A stretch of DNA of 64,000 nucleotides from Hamadaea flava. GTDB taxonomy: Bacteria > Actinomycetota > Actinomycetes > Mycobacteriales > Micromonosporaceae. The notes beneath the pieces are model-generated. The model was given only the letters and a program-made list of their open reading frames with translations, had not been told where the DNA came from and did no database searches. This document shows positions 56,407 through 62,241 of this stretch, one piece after another. Position 1 is the stretch's first letter, and each line of letters opens with the position of its first letter. The DNA lies in contig NZ_JAMZDZ010000001.1 of the NCBI RefSeq assembly GCF_024172085.1, positions 7,564,001 through 7,628,000 of the forward strand, given 5' to 3'. The position numbers and the translations under genes were made by a program.

Positions 56407-56441
56407 GTAACGCTGTACAGCGGGGAACGGGATTGATCGCC

Positions 56442-56921
56442 GTGGCACGGGACGAGAAGCGCAAGGTCATCGCGGTCAATCGCAAGGCGCGGCACGACTA
56501 CGAGATCCTCAAGACCTACGAGGCCGGTCTCGTGCTGCGTGGGACCGAGGTGAAGTCGCTGCGGGACGGCCGGGTGTCGCTCGTCGACGCGTTCGCCCAG
56601 GAGACCGACGGCGAACTGCTCCTACATGGTCTCCACATCGCCGAGTACGCCTTGGGCACCTGGACGAACCACACCCCGCGCCGGATCCGCAAGCTCCTGC
56701 TGCACCGGGTGGAGATCGAGAAGATCCTGCTGAAGCTGCGCGACCCCGGCGTCACATTGATCCCGCTGTCGATGTACTTCGCCAACGGCTGGGCCAAGGT
56801 CGAGCTGGGGCTGGCGCGCGGGCGGAAGGCGTACGACAAGCGGCAGGTGCTGGCCGAACGGGACGCCAATCGCGAGATCGCCCGGGAGTTCGGCCGTCAC
56901 CTCAAGGGGCGACCCCGGTAG
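56442..56921 (+). CDS. smpB: SsrA-binding protein SmpB
   Basis: Partner of tmRNA in ribosome rescue. 159 aa from the GTG at 56442; a TTG at 56433 is in frame but has no space for a ribosome-binding site. [55 protein letters not shown] and the basic C-terminal tail GRKAYDKRQ are family-typical. ssrA itself is not adjacent: the next gene starts within 25 bases. Transcribed after a long inverted repeat that closes pheST. Confidence 0.95.
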
Positions 56922-56945
56922 CCCAGCTCCGTTACAGTGTGGACG

Positions 56946-58073
56946 GTGCGGATCGAGGAGCATCTGACGACCGTCCCGGACGACGTGGACGTGGTGCTCG
57001 ACTTGTCCAATGTGGTCCGCGAGCGCGGCCTGTGCAGTGCTCGCCCGGCCGATCTGCGACGGCTCTTCGCCCTGATCGACGGACTGAAGACGTATCTCGC
57101 CGACGGCACCGTGCAGGTCTCCGTGGTGACCGACTGGTCGCTTGAGCGCCGGTCCGATCTGCTCTCCACGAGCGAGCGCCGGGCGCTGCGCCGGTGGATC
57201 GACGGCGGCCTGATCGAGGCTCGGGACGGCGCCGACGACCGGGTGCTGGAGATCGCCGACGTGACCGGGGCGAAGGTCGTCAGCCACGACAACTTCAAGG
57301 GCCGGCACCGCGACTTCCCGTGGATTCCGGGCAGCGCCGACCGTTTCCTGCGGATGCGGCCTGACGGCGACGGCATACGCGTCGAAGCGCGCGACATCCC
57401 GATCTACCCCGAGCACCAGCTGTCGAGCGCTGAGGAGCACGACCTGCTGCGGGCGGCCGGGCTCTACGACCGGGAACGCCGTCTGCGCCGGGAACCCCTG
57501 ACCCGAGGCTGGCGGTGCCCGGTGCCGGACTGCCCGCTGTTCGGCGAGGGGCGCGACGGCGGCCAGCCGCTGCCGGCGTACCGGGACGGGCGGGTGTGCT
57601 GCCCGAGCCATCGGCGGCCGATGAGCGACCTCGGCCGGCTTCTTCGCCCGATCCAGCTCAAGGTCTCGGTCAACCGCACGGTCGTCGACCGCTTCCTGGT
57701 GACGCCGGGCGAGCCGGTGACGGTCGGCCGGGAACTGCTGCGCCGGGTGCCGCCGCAGTACGGGGACTTGATCAGCCGCCGGCACGCTGAGCTCGCCTGG
57801 GACGGTCAGGTGCTCACCGTCACCGATCTGAACAGCCGAAACGGCGTACGCGTCAAGGGCCGCCGGCTGACGCCGGGCCGTCCGGAGCGCTGGGATCTCC
57901 GCGACGCCGTGGCGCTGCACGAGAAGGTGAAGCTCGTGGTGAGCGGACGGCACTTCGTCTTCGACGATGCCCCTACGTCCGAGGACGCCAAGGCAACCGG
58001 CGACAGCGCGGCCGCCGACGCTCCCAGCGTCGCGTTCGACGCCGAGACCCGAGTGCACCGGGGGCGGCGGTGA
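56946..58073 (+). CDS. PIN-like (NYN/Zc3h12a-type) RNase - zinc knuckle - FHA domain protein
   Basis: 375 aa from GTG 56946, 8 bases past a TACAGT -10-like element; GTG 56937 is an alternative. Residues 10-130 look like a PIN-like RNase: acidic DLSN near 18, SVVTDWSLERR, ADDRVLEIAD near 96 and SHDNFKGRHRDFPW near 113, in the order seen in NYN/Zc3h12a nucleases. CPVPDC near 190 and CCPSH near 217 suggest one zinc site. Residues 245-335 are an FHA domain: VTVGREL, SRRHAEL, NSRNGVRV, the phosphothreonine-binding pattern. The stop overlaps a Ser/Thr kinase start by 4 bases. A phospho-controlled RNase is a reasonable guess, not shown. Confidence 0.78.
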   Translation: MRIEEHLTTVPDDVDVVLDLSNVVRERGLCSARPADLRRLFALIDGLKTYLADGTVQVSVVTDWSLERRSDLLSTSERRALRRWIDGGLIEARDGADDRVLEIADVTGAKVVSHDNFKGRHRDFPWIPGSADRFLRMRPDGDGIRVEARDIPIYPEHQLSSAEEHDLLRAAGLYDRERRLRREPLTRGWRCPVPDCPLFGEGRDGGQPLPAYRDGRVCCPSHRRPMSDLGRLLRPIQLKVSVNRTVVDRFLVTPGEPVTVGRELLRRVPPQYGDLISRRHAELAWDGQVLTVTDLNSRNGVRVKGRRLTPGRPERWDLRDAVALHEKVKLVVSGRHFVFDDAPTSEDAKATGDSAAADAPSVAFDAETRVHRGRR

Positions 58074-59047
58074 CCCTCCTGGACCATCGGTACCGCCTCG
58101 GCGAACGGCTGGGCGTGGGCGGTTTCGGCGAGGTCTTCCTCGCCCAGGACGTCAAGATGAACCGGGACGTCGCGGTCAAGATGCTCAGGGACGAGGCGGA
58201 CCCGGCCGACCTCGCCCGGCTGCTGCGCGAGGCCAAGGTGCTCGCCGGGATCCGGCACCCCAACATCGTCTACATCCTCGACGTCGGCGCGAACTACCTC
58301 GTCATGGAGCGGCTCACCGGCCCGGACCTGCTGACTCTCGCGAAGGCGCGGTTGCCGTTCGCGGTGGAGGAGGCGGCCAGCTACGGCGTGGTGCTGGCGG
58401 GCGCCCTCACGGTGTTGCACGAGCGGGCGGAGCCGATCGTGCACCGCGACGTCAAACCGCACAACATCATGCTCGACGGCGCTCCGGGCAGCCAGCAGGT
58501 GAAGCTGGTCGACTTCGGGCTCGCCACCACCCCGCAGCTTCCCCAGGTCACCGAGTCGGGGCAGTTGGTGGGCACGCTCGCGTACATGGCGCCCGAGCAG
58601 CTGGCCCGGCACCGGGCCGGTCCGCCGGCTGACGTCTACTCCCTCGGAGTCACGCTCTACCTGCTCCTGAGCGGGTCGATGCCGTCGGATCCGCTGGCGC
58701 AGCCGCCGGTGCCGCCCCGGCCCTTGCTGCGGTTGCGACCGGAACTACCGCCCGCACTGGCCGGCATCGTGCACCGCATGCTCGCCGTCGATCCCGCCGA
58801 GCGACCGCGGGCGGCGGAGGTTCGCGAGGGACTGGCCGCGCTCGGTGGGGCCCAGGCAGCGGCCGAGGCGGTCGCCTCGCGGCTGGCCGGTCAGTTCACC
58901 GACGTACAGGCCCTGTTCGGCGCGGGTCGAGCGAAACGCGCGGCCTTCGCGCTGGTCCGGCTCCTGGCGCGAGCCGAGGCCGAGTTGGGCCCGGATCATT
59001 CACTGGTACGCCGAATGCACGACTACGCCCTCACGCGTACTCCGTAG
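58070..59047 (+). CDS. Soluble Ser/Thr protein kinase
   Basis: 325 aa Hanks-type kinase. Gly-loop GVGGFGEV near residue 15, VAVK with the ATP-binding Lys at 37, catalytic HRDVKPHN near 125, DFGLA near 148, and the APE in YMAPEQLA near 173. No membrane helix is seen; the C-terminal 70 residues are helical and Ala/Arg-rich. GTG start overlaps the stop of the FHA gene (GTGA), so the two are made together and the FHA domain is the obvious partner. The 3' end overlaps the convergent second kinase gene by 17 bases. Confidence 0.92.
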   Translation: MTLLDHRYRLGERLGVGGFGEVFLAQDVKMNRDVAVKMLRDEADPADLARLLREAKVLAGIRHPNIVYILDVGANYLVMERLTGPDLLTLAKARLPFAVEEAASYGVVLAGALTVLHERAEPIVHRDVKPHNIMLDGAPGSQQVKLVDFGLATTPQLPQVTESGQLVGTLAYMAPEQLARHRAGPPADVYSLGVTLYLLLSGSMPSDPLAQPPVPPRPLLRLRPELPPALAGIVHRMLAVDPAERPRAAEVREGLAALGGAQAAAEAVASRLAGQFTDVQALFGAGRAKRAAFALVRLLARAEAELGPDHSLVRRMHDYALTRTP

Positions 59048-60608
59048 TGGCCCACACGGTCGCGGTCGCGCTGTCGCCGAAGGTGAAGCCGCCAGTGATC
59101 TTGGTGATGGTGGCGACGCCGAGCAGGCCCTTCTCCGTGCGGAAGCACAGGGTGGAGCCCTTGGTGACCTCCACCCGGTCGGTTCCCACGGTCGAGATGA
59201 GCTCGTTGCACTTGTGCGGGCTCGCCGTGGCGCCCGCCGGCAGGATCGCGACGCTGGTGTGGTTGCCGCCGTCGATGCCGTCGATGGTGGACTCGGTGTC
59301 GTTGGTGAGACCCAGCTGCAGGTCGATACGGCCGCTGCTGGGATCGACGACCGGCGGCGTGGTGTCGAGGTCGATGCCGTCGCCGTTGATCCGGATGGGG
59401 CCGGTCCAGCGCACTTCGTCGCTCCCCGCCGACGCCGAAGCCGACGCTGACGCCGACGGCGCGGCCGAGGACGGCGTGCCGGCCCCGGTGGTGGCGGTGA
59501 CCTGGACGGCGGCTGTCGGGGCGGTGGAGACGCTCGCGCTCGGACCCACTCCCGACCCGGAGTCCGCCGCGGGGTTCGCTGCGGAGCCGGCACCGAGCTT
59601 CACCCCGACGAGCACGGCCGCCGCGAGCACCACTGCCGCGACGCCCGCTCCTACCAGCCGGCGCCGTCTGGCGGAGCGCTGTGGCAGCACGGCGGTCGGA
59701 CCGATCGGCGGAACCGGCTGGGCCGCTATCCGCGCCAGTTCGGTCGCCCGGGCCGCGATGTCCGTGGTGATCGCCGGGGGCAGCCAGCCCTCGCCGAGCC
59801 GGGGCGTGCCGCCGCAGGCAGCGATTATCTCGGCCGTGTCGGGACGGTTGCCGGGGTCGACCGCCAGGCATCGTTCGACCAGATCGCGAAGTTCGGCCGG
59901 GCAGCCCGTCAGGTCGGCTTCGCCACGGGTGATCCGCACCAGCTGATGGGCGAACGTCCCGTCCCCGTACGCCGAGCGCCCGGTCGCGGCGAAGTAGGCG
60001 ATGCCGCCGAGGGCGAAGACGTCGGATGCGGGGGTGGCGGGCTGGCCGAGCGCCACCTCCGGTGCCATGGAGCCGGGCGTGCCGAGCGGCGTACGCGAGA
60101 CGAAGGTCTGGCTGACGTCGGTGGCCCGGGCGATGCCGAAATCGATGACCTTCGGGCCGTCGGCGGCGAGCACGACGTTGCCGGGGGAGAGGTCCCGGTG
60201 GACGATGCCGTACGAGTGGATGGCCTGCAACGCCGTGGCGACCGCGGCGACCAGTCCCTGTACGGTCGGCAGCGGCAGGGGCCCGGCGGCGCGTACCGCG
60301 TCGAGCAGCGTCGGCCCCGTCACGTAAGCCGTCGCCAGCCAGGGGATCGGGGCGTCCGCACTGGAGTCGACGAGCGGTGCGATGTAGGGCCCGGCGACTC
60401 GCCGCGCCGCGTCGGCCTCCTGGGCGAACCTGATGCGGAAGGCCTGGTCGTCGGCGTACTCGCGGCGTACCACCTTGATCGCCAGCGCTTGCCGGCCGCC
60501 CGGGAGGAAGGCGAGGTAGACCTCGCCCATGCCGCCCATGCCGAGGCGAGCACGCAGGCGGTATCCGCCGATCTCCTGCGGATCCTGATTGCTCAATGTG
60601 GACACCAC
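59031..60608 (-). CDS. Membrane-anchored Ser/Thr protein kinase with extracellular beta domain
   Basis: 525 aa. Kinase domain 15-275: LGMGGMGEV, AIKVV Lys near 45, VHRDLSPGNVV (HRDLSPGN, not the more usual HRDLKPGN), VIDFGIAR near 156, and a MAPE-like GSMAPEVAL. One membrane helix at about 313-335 after RRRR. Then a Ser/Ala/Thr linker and an outside domain (about 410-525, EVRWTGPIRING, TVGTDRVEVTKGSTLCF) with two Cys. HRDLSPGN loses the Lys of the catalytic loop, so activity may differ. GTG start without a clear Shine-Dalgarno. Confidence 0.87.
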   Translation of the reverse strand: MVSTLSNQDPQEIGGYRLRARLGMGGMGEVYLAFLPGGRQALAIKVVRREYADDQAFRIRFAQEADAARRVAGPYIAPLVDSSADAPIPWLATAYVTGPTLLDAVRAAGPLPLPTVQGLVAAVATALQAIHSYGIVHRDLSPGNVVLAADGPKVIDFGIARATDVSQTFVSRTPLGTPGSMAPEVALGQPATPASDVFALGGIAYFAATGRSAYGDGTFAHQLVRITRGEADLTGCPAELRDLVERCLAVDPGNRPDTAEIIAACGGTPRLGEGWLPPAITTDIAARATELARIAAQPVPPIGPTAVLPQRSARRRRLVGAGVAAVVLAAAVLVGVKLGAGSAANPAADSGSGVGPSASVSTAPTAAVQVTATTGAGTPSSAAPSASASASASAGSDEVRWTGPIRINGDGIDLDTTPPVVDPSSGRIDLQLGLTNDTESTIDGIDGGNHTSVAILPAGATASPHKCNELISTVGTDRVEVTKGSTLCFRTEKGLLGVATITKITGGFTFGDSATATVWATTEYA

Positions 60609-60641
60609 GAGGGCAGCTTAGGTCATGTGTGCCGGCGATGG

Positions 60642-60689: not shown

Positions 60690-62078
60690 TCAGCCGAGGG
60701 TGCAGGCGGCGCCGTTCAGGGTGAACGACGTCGGCGAGGTGTTGGTGCCGGAGTAGGTGCCCTGGAAGCCGAAGGCGGTGCTCGCCTCGGCGGCGAGGGT
60801 GCCGTTGTAGCCCAGGTCGCGAGCGGTCACCGACTGCCCGCTCTGGGTGACGGTGGCGTTCCAGAAGCTGGTGATCTTCTGGTTGCCGGAGTACGCCCAG
60901 GCCGCGGTCCATCCGGTGATCGTGGTGGAGCCGGTGTTGGTCACCGTGACGTCGGCGGTGAATCCGGTGTTCCAGGTGTTGGGGACGTACTTCACCCGGC
61001 ACGACCCGCCGCCTCCGCCGCCGCTGGACGTGGTGGCGGTGACCGTCGACGAGTTGCCGGAGGTGTTCCCGGCGGCGTCTCTGGCGCGGACGTAGAACTG
61101 GTATTGCGTGGACGCGGCCAGCCCGGTCGCGGTGTACGAGGTGCCGGATGCCGTGGCGATCTGGCTGAACGATCCGCCGTTGGTGGCCCGGTAGACGTCG
61201 TACCCGGTGACTCCGACGTTGTCCGACGACGCGCTCCAGTTGAGGTTCACGCTGTTCGCGGTCGCGCCCGACGCCGTCAGGTTCGCCGGAGTCGACGGCG
61301 GCGAGGTGTCGCCACCGCCGCCACCGCTGCCGACGGAGAACGCGGTGACCGCCAGCCCGGTCTGCCCGACCCACGGCTCGAAGCCGGCCTGGATGCTGGT
61401 GAGGTACCAGCTGCGCTGGGCGTACCCGCGGCTGACGGCGTCGCTGTAGAAGTCGTTGACCGTGAAGTTCATCGAGCCGGTCGCCGATTGCCGGACGTAG
61501 GAGACCACGTTCCAGCCGATGTTGCCTTCCCAGACGTTCCAGGTCGCGCCGTTGATCGTCGCGGTGCCGACCTGGGAGCCGACCGGCTGGATCGAGCCCA
61601 TCTTGTTGAGCCAGATCATGATCTCGGCGCCGGTGTTCTGCCCGTCGGTCCGCGGCGTCGGGTCGAACCAGATGTCGTACGCGGCGTCCCAGACTCCGCT
61701 CGACGGGTAGTTCATCGACACCGAGGTGGTGAGCCCGGTGAAGGTGCTGGTGCTCGCCTGGAGCGGTAGCCCGCTGCCGGTGCTGCAGTTGGCGTAGTGG
61801 CAGCCGAAATAGACCGACGGGTACGCCCCAGGCGCGCCGTTGGTCGCCTTGTTGTGGCTGGCCGTGGTCACCGCGAAACCGGTGCCGGTGACGTTGATGC
61901 ACTGGGTGGTGTCGTCGCCCCAGTTGTTGTTCTGGACGACGTAGCGCCCGCTCTGAATCGTGGTGGAGCCGTACTTCTCGCAGATCGTGACGTCGGCGTG
62001 GGCGGTGCCGGACGCGGTGAGCGTCCCGGTCACGATCAGCGCACCCGCCGCGAGCGCGGCGAGGATGCGGTGTCTCAT
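60690..62078 (-). CDS. Secreted endoglucanase, GH12 - FN3 - CBM2
   Basis: 462 aa from ATG 62078, which has GGAGG 6 bases upstream; the frame runs further up but without a signal. Signal peptide about 1-28, cut after AHA. GH12 domain about 30-240: NNNWGDD, nucleophile Glu in GAEIMIWLN near 152, and acid/base Glu in AGFEPWVG near 233. A Gly/Ser linker, one fibronectin type III domain (PANLTASGATANSVNLNW) and a C-terminal CBM2 cellulose-binding module (VKYVPNTWNTGFTADVTVTNTG ... GFQGTYSG) follow. Secreted beta-1,4-glucanase. A CebR-type operator lies 56 bp upstream. Confidence 0.92.
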   Translation of the reverse strand: MRHRILAALAAGALIVTGTLTASGTAHADVTICEKYGSTTIQSGRYVVQNNNWGDDTTQCINVTGTGFAVTTASHNKATNGAPGAYPSVYFGCHYANCSTGSGLPLQASTSTFTGLTTSVSMNYPSSGVWDAAYDIWFDPTPRTDGQNTGAEIMIWLNKMGSIQPVGSQVGTATINGATWNVWEGNIGWNVVSYVRQSATGSMNFTVNDFYSDAVSRGYAQRSWYLTSIQAGFEPWVGQTGLAVTAFSVGSGGGGGDTSPPSTPANLTASGATANSVNLNWSASSDNVGVTGYDVYRATNGGSFSQIATASGTSYTATGLAASTQYQFYVRARDAAGNTSGNSSTVTATTSSGGGGGGSCRVKYVPNTWNTGFTADVTVTNTGSTTITGWTAAWAYSGNQKITSFWNATVTQSGQSVTARDLGYNGTLAAEASTAFGFQGTYSGTNTSPTSFTLNGAACTLG

Positions 62079-62133
62079 CTGCTTCCTCCATGGGCGTGGA
62101 GTCGCGGCACGTCCGTGTGCCGCCGAAGGGGGA

Positions 62134-62147
62134 TGGGAGCGCTCCCG
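62134..62147. promoter_or_regulatory. CebR-type operator upstream of the GH12 cellulase
   Basis: TGGGAGCGCTCCCG matches the 14-bp CebR palindrome TGGGAGCGCTCCCA at 13 of 14 positions. It is 56-69 bp upstream of the cellulase start, overlapping the region where transcription should begin. CebR is the cellobiose-responsive LacI-family repressor of cellulase genes in streptomycetes and thermobifidas. Confidence 0.8.
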
Positions 62148-62241
62148 CACGGCAGCCTACCGTCAATCTTCATCGATGGAAAGCCGTGAGCCCATCGAAC
62201 GCGATTCGATGAAAGGAGTTTCGCGAGAAGTGATGCGTGCC

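Follow-up and report, generated by a model that had tools for sequence, protein, structure and literature searches.

The locus described here raises the question of whether a bacterial protein that resembles a nuclease could be switched by Ser/Thr kinases encoded directly beside it. It lies in a 64,000-nucleotide stretch of the genome of Hamadaea flava, a probable soil actinobacterium (contig NZ_JAMZDZ010000001.1); this stretch is referred to as the window. The locus comprises three genes that we call A, B and K2. Our best reading is a predicted cassette in which an RNase, A, is tethered through its FHA domain and gated by its kinases. That the three genes form such a phosphorylation-gated unit, with RNase activity and gating both predicted from sequence, is a proposal we hold with slightly better than even confidence.

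The three genes and their products

Gene A (56946..58073, forward strand; a further in-frame GTG lies at 56937) encodes a protein of 375 amino acids with the build NYN/PIN - zinc site - FHA. The FHA domain (57720..57905, forward strand; PF00498, E 2.5e-10) scores 41 bits against a Pfam cut-off of 20.7 and belongs to the family. It shows the motifs GR, SRRH and NSRNG, and residues G261, R262, S277, R278 and H280 are invariant in 12 of 12 full-length relatives of A. The zinc site C191-x4-C196-x22-C219-x2-H222 (57516..57611, forward strand) is likewise invariant in 12 of 12 relatives. From its spacing, this element looks like a single ribbon- or C3H-like site. No Pfam family scores above its cut-off in residues 1-250.

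The first domain (residues 8-152; 56967..57401, forward strand), recognized with profiles, is likely an endoribonuclease domain of the Zc3h12a (Regnase) NYN type, as predicted from several comparisons. It carries the motifs DLSN, TDW, ADD and SHD and the pentad D19/N22/D63/D97/D115. An alignment of 29 N-terminal domains of A relatives from actinobacterial genomes, termed A3 and 26-47% identical to the window domain, contains seven invariant columns that include all five pentad positions. When the A3 profile was compared with the PDB at E up to 10, 11 of 14 matches were PIN/NYN nucleases (PRORP2, VapC6, KHNYN, ZC3H12A, B and C) and three were other proteins, the top E-value being just 0.022. 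At E up to 1, 12 of the 29 members gave a match to Pfam RNase_Zc3h12a (PF11977), the top E being 5.3e-6; the window domain alone reached 13.1 bits where the cut-off is 23, so that the single protein falls short of the curated threshold. A further link was obtained by hhalign between A3 and L168, a protein of genome G315 that scores above the PF11977 cut-off. The match spans 124 columns at 97.7% (E 1.7e-12) and has all pentad residues in register, compared with at most 1.3% in 40 column shuffles and 2.7% with a reversed profile. A classical NYN domain was rejected at 0.3% in the profile comparison, and the lack of a match to the PF01936-type profile places the kinship on the Zc3h12a/PRORP side. 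An AlphaFold2 model of A computed from two sequences alone had a mean pLDDT of 47, too low for the model to be of use. L168 itself (G315:C57:76083-76505), a separate protein, lies about 35 kb from the A homologue on the same contig, and G315 is the sole genome among 98 with a match at E up to 1e-6.

The stop codon of A and the start codon of B share the letters GTGA. Gene B (58070..59047, forward strand; 325 amino acids, identified by Pfam and motifs) encodes a Ser/Thr kinase that is soluble and ends in a short C-terminal tail. It scores 153.1 bits with Pkinase (PF00069; cut-off 31.7), which makes it a Hanks-type kinase, and its motif set is complete (GVGGFGEV, VAVK, HRDVKPHN, DFG, APE). No strong hydrophobic segment was seen in B, the top mean over 19 residues being 1.4 as against 2.65 in K2. 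K2 (59031..60608, reverse strand) is convergent to B and overlaps its end by 17 nt. Its product exceeds the Pfam kinase cut-off and has one transmembrane segment by hydrophobicity (about residues 318-336), beyond which the C-terminal domain is probably the outer one. K2 has HRDLSPGN where the usual form is HRDLKPGN; since HRDLS replaces HRDLK, its catalysis is perhaps weak. The G+C content of A, B and K2 is 71.5-72.6%, that of the window 70.2%.

The first-pass annotation, made from the letters alone, had read A as a protein with a PIN/NYN-type first domain, an acidic cluster, a zinc knuckle and a complete FHA pattern, followed after a 4-base overlap by a complete and soluble Hanks kinase. The overlap, the FHA and kinase domains and the soluble nature of B agree with the data above, the profiles group the first domain with PIN/NYN nucleases, and the acidic cluster persists in 29 of 29 homologous domains. 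The zinc-knuckle label has to be dropped because the spacing C-x4-C-x22-C-x2-H is incompatible with it. The annotation's further idea, that the kinase might phosphorylate itself, draw in A by way of FHA and so control RNA cleavage, is a prediction that these data support in part.

A three-gene segment and its empty site

By Pfam, the window genes flanking the cassette encode PheT, SmpB, a GH12-fn3-CBM2 protein and an ArgC-like dehydrogenase; the names pheT, smpB and argC, which we take to apply, come from these domains and from recall. Genome comparison delimits a segment of the window, 56919..60639 (no strand assigned), that contains A, B and K2 and is missing from the same-genus genome G039 and, judged by the flanks, from G080. 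In both genomes the neighbouring genes are found together and are highly similar to those of the window (in G039 and G080, respectively: smpB 96 and 94%, the GH12-CBM2 gene 90 and 92%, argC 95 and 95% identical), and none of A, B and K2 had a match in these smpB-GH12-argC neighbourhoods. In G080, about 120 nt of different sequence replaces the cassette. A less similar pheT is present at the empty site as well (72% in G039; a partial 84% at a contig end in G080). The third same-genus genome, G061, has a relative of smpB, the neighbourhood being otherwise absent.

The layout of A-B with a convergent K2 recurs in G186 and G736, where K2 is 46% and 39% identical to that of the window and the outer domain is similar too. 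Because the layout recurs twice and the site is empty in two sister genomes, the three genes, on about 3.7 kb, are gained or lost as a unit. From its sparse distribution, gain of the cassette looks likelier than loss. Bracketing repeats were absent among the largest 20 of 24 direct-repeat families and the 25 of 45 inverted pairs listed. K2-like kinases also occur as divergent partners of A relatives at six loci (L065, L069, L137, L141, L143, L163).

Two further observations concern the neighbours. Besides the smpB gene adjoining the cassette (56433-56921), this genome has a second one (G000:C1:5574120-5574590), which matches it at 73%, and several relatives have two copies as well. On the other side (60690-62150), the GH12 - fibronectin III - CBM2 protein is a probable secreted cellulase.

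Kinase linkage among relatives of A, and a paralogue whose active site is lost

Gene neighbourhoods indicate that a kinase accompanies most relatives of A. As window-type we counted 48 loci, including the window, whose score with the A2 profile is at least 263 bits. Rows with lower scores, labelled 'mid' (six of them on the tree) and 'second' (five), lie outside this set; L153, a gene in two pieces, was counted in the 48 and left off the tree. From three homologue searches, 6 of 6, 13 of 16 and 31 of 39 match places were fetched and examined in stretches of 9 to 20 kb, of which those at L127 (A at the contig end) and L132 (a short contig) could conceal a kinase. Eight seeds, among them some partners of A, went into the kinase profile. 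A kinase is located directly downstream of A on the same strand at 27 of the 48 loci, directly divergent at 6, about 5 kb off within a divergent module at 5 and upstream on the same strand at 1, giving a link at 39 of the 48.

Twelve of the 27 downstream pairs come from genus g236 and six from g243, so that the loci are not independent. On the tree, no fewer than 5 changes on supported branches are required to explain the downstream-kinase label. In the window clade (18 rows, support 92) the kinase is downstream in 17 rows, and the kinases of this clade have a C-terminal tail in common as judged by eye. A start codon that allows the 4-nt overlap is present in 9 of the 27 downstream pairs, including that of G186. 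Elsewhere the partner of A is a kinase-WD40 protein (by Pfam in L064, L067 and L068) or, at L156, a kinase with TPR/Sel1 repeats; Pfam detected no TPR in B or at L039 and L149.

The divergent modules at L062, L063, L127 and L129 have another NYN-zinc-FHA protein directly before the kinase, which it overlaps by 4 nt at the first three of these loci. This second family has the same D/N pentad and a zinc site of the type C-C-C-C. At L062, Pfam additionally identifies a VWA_2 protein and a SpoIIE-type phosphatase, the kinase there scoring 25.3 bits and thus under the cut-off of 31.7; vWA proteins were also found by Pfam at L063 and L040. An NYN-zinc protein with two FHA stretches stands before a kinase-like gene at L073 (6669-8558; genome G387).

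Residues 1-233 of A used as query gave matches in 267 of 300 genomes of the bacterial family to which the window belongs. A paralogue with a lost active site, of which the window genome carries its own copy, was read from 33 rows representing 31 different genes. None of the 31 has an intact pentad, and N22 is replaced by Glu throughout. All retain the four zinc ligands, and all but L021, where they are cut or shifted, retain the FHA motifs. The profile of the paralogue's first domain did not match L168 (4.3%). A kinase was seen near the paralogue at one of 31 loci (L014), in a scan that mostly covered 1.5 kb per side. Ten of the paralogues form one clade (support 100) beside the window clade, and the paralogue of Virgisporangium aurantiacum (L006) falls within the clade of the window's bacterial family; a search of genome contigs returned three loci, namely L006, which is full-length and paralogue-type, and two matches to the FHA part only. 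In both genomes examined, the paralogue follows a very large hydrophobic protein with a Cys-rich N-terminus (L005 2899-6564, L041 5406-8969), the L041 copy being without a Pfam match at E up to 0.1.

All five pentad residues are present in 38 of 39 kinase-linked copies, in 4 of the 9 window-type copies without a kinase in the fetched stretch and in none of the 31 paralogues. The association of kinase link and intact pentad, suggested by these neighbourhoods, may serve as a lead: Fisher's test gave p 0.0004 with ancestry ignored, and in a test on independent pairs 1-3 of 6 agreed and none disagreed, which is not significant. As to the first-pass annotation, a lack of joint conservation of A and the kinase would have spoken against it; instead, the two are linked at 39 of 48 loci and in 17 of 18 members of the window clade. 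It described the A-B pair and missed K2, the empty site, the paralogue with the dead site and the sister arrangements with WD40, vWA and phosphatase proteins.

Possible modes of control and known systems

In the mechanism that we propose, K2 would sense a signal at the envelope, and K2, B or both would phosphorylate A or themselves. Through its FHA domain, A would dock on the resulting phosphothreonine, located either on a kinase or, as in GarA, on A's own tail, and this docking would switch RNA cleavage by A. A candidate acceptor is a threonine near the C-terminus, Thr368 in AETRVH (58047..58049, forward strand), proposed by inference only. Among 48 relatives, 25 have (A/P)-T-(M, L, I, V, R, S, T or A) within their final 22 residues, whereas stretches of that length taken at random from these proteins contain it in 4.1% of cases. 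The tail of the window protein, DAPSVAFDAETRVH, misses this pattern; APT(M/L/I) is present in the tails of 32 of 33 paralogue rows. We lean slightly towards a nuclease that its kinases keep inactive in the resting state, since catalytic residues tend to be lost, and the zinc and FHA motifs kept, where a copy has no kinase. More tentatively, the cassette might be a mobile outside-in switch, running from the membrane kinase to the soluble kinase and on to FHA docking that turns a Regnase-like RNase on or off, with the dead-nuclease paralogue acting as a phospho-adaptor in the window's bacterial family. The nuclease family is paired with short-tailed soluble, Sel1/TPR, WD40, transmembrane and vWA/phosphatase-linked kinases.

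Actinobacteria are rich in kinases, and the kinase neighbourhood of A could be a matter of chance, given that eight of the genomes hold 21-84 kinases each (E up to 1e-20). However, this amounts to one kinase per about 114-422 kb, a density so low that well under one chance adjacency is expected, against an immediate downstream kinase at 27 of 48 loci. As the three-gene layout also occurs at three sites and scanned paralogue loci have a kinase in only 1 of 31 cases (L014), we regard coincidence as highly improbable. That A serves chiefly as an adaptor for phosphopeptides, as GarA and ArnA do, is unlikely, but far less remote: its NYN domain would bind RNA or protein and leave it uncut, and the kinases would control what A binds. 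The paralogue, with zinc and FHA motifs kept and the pentad lost in 31 of 31 genes, indicates that the build can serve without catalysis, and ArnA, a zinc finger-FHA protein, is a regulator of such a kind according to the accessible part of PMC6509490. A pure scaffold, however, would need none of the pentad residues, which are kept in 38 of 39 kinase-linked copies and invariant in 29 diverse domains.

The RNase could also be idle until the kinases fire, as an activated effector of the abortive type in stress or phage defence. The sparse distribution and the movement as a unit would suit such a role, as would the likeness of conflict systems in the accessible text of PMC7159879 to those sister arrangements that combine vWA, phosphatase and kinase genes. 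Still, A matched none of the PADLOC 2.0.0 families, no relative of A was found in searches of plasmids, phages and viral contigs, and the window flanks are housekeeping or GH12 genes and not a defence island, so that we consider this rather unlikely. B matched 33 PADLOC families, and those shown were mostly kinase models (mad6, PD-T4-6 and others), which is why we take these matches to be unspecific; A and B together fit no one system. With PADLOC, three neighbours at L064 gave a single weak partial match in each of two, and one distant kinase was matched by B in viral contigs. A type II toxin-antitoxin system with a PIN toxin was rejected, as there is no small antitoxin gene: the gap between smpB and A is 24 nt and the kinase overlaps the end of A. 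We return to the FHA-tethered, kinase-gated RNase as the best reading. If true, the three genes would make up a compact phospho-switch that acts on RNA and would offer some of the many Ser/Thr kinases of actinobacteria a target open to direct testing, with a natural control available in the sister family of the same build that has lost its active site.

Among known systems, the MoxR-vWA ternary and GAP1-N2 systems share with A the combination of PIN and FHA on a single polypeptide, and Kaur et al. 2020 describe kinase, PP2C and vWA neighbours in actinobacteria (accessible part of PMC7159879). The kinase, PP2C and vWA genes of the GAP1-N2 systems in that part resemble the divergent modules at L062, L063 and L040. 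The window cassette differs in that no vWA or phosphatase gene adjoins it, and assignment to the kinase-PP2C-vWA type was rejected because neither a PP2C nor a vWA gene is present in the flanks. The conflict systems in the accessible text of PMC7159879 include no mention of a kinase-coupled NYN-zinc-FHA protein, and no kinase-coupled build was found in the literature on NYN/PIN domains with FHA, kinase or vWA, outside preprints and most subscription papers.

GarA/OdhI with PknB/PknG likewise combines an actinobacterial FHA protein with Ser/Thr kinases, and the FHA domain of GarA binds GarA's own phosphothreonine (PMC5448819, in the part available); unlike A, GarA/OdhI has neither nuclease nor zinc site, and the NCBIfam OdhI and FhaB models match A in the FHA part only, far under their cut-offs. 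In Sulfolobus, ArnA-ArnB with ArnC/ArnD resembles A by joining a zinc finger-FHA protein to kinases, the partner being a vWA protein, which ArnA binds and the kinases phosphorylate (accessible part of PMC6509490). ArnA differs by its archaeal motility control and by having no nuclease domain, and its PDB match to A is weak (E 0.12). Like A, Regnase-1 (ZC3H12A, MCPIP1) joins a PIN/NYN domain of the Zc3h12a type, bearing an Asp cluster, to a C3H zinc element behind it. The likeness of the zinc parts is one of description, and the spacing C-x4-C-x22-C-x2-H of A counts as a difference. It is an animal protein without FHA, controlled via ubiquitin and 14-3-3. Phosphorylation by IKK-beta or IRAK1 leads to its degradation or inactivation (PMC12982082, in the part available), and kinase control is what we propose for A. 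Animal immunity uses kinase-controlled RNases of the Regnase kind, and the A cassette, if our reading is true, would be a bacterial counterpart wired through FHA.
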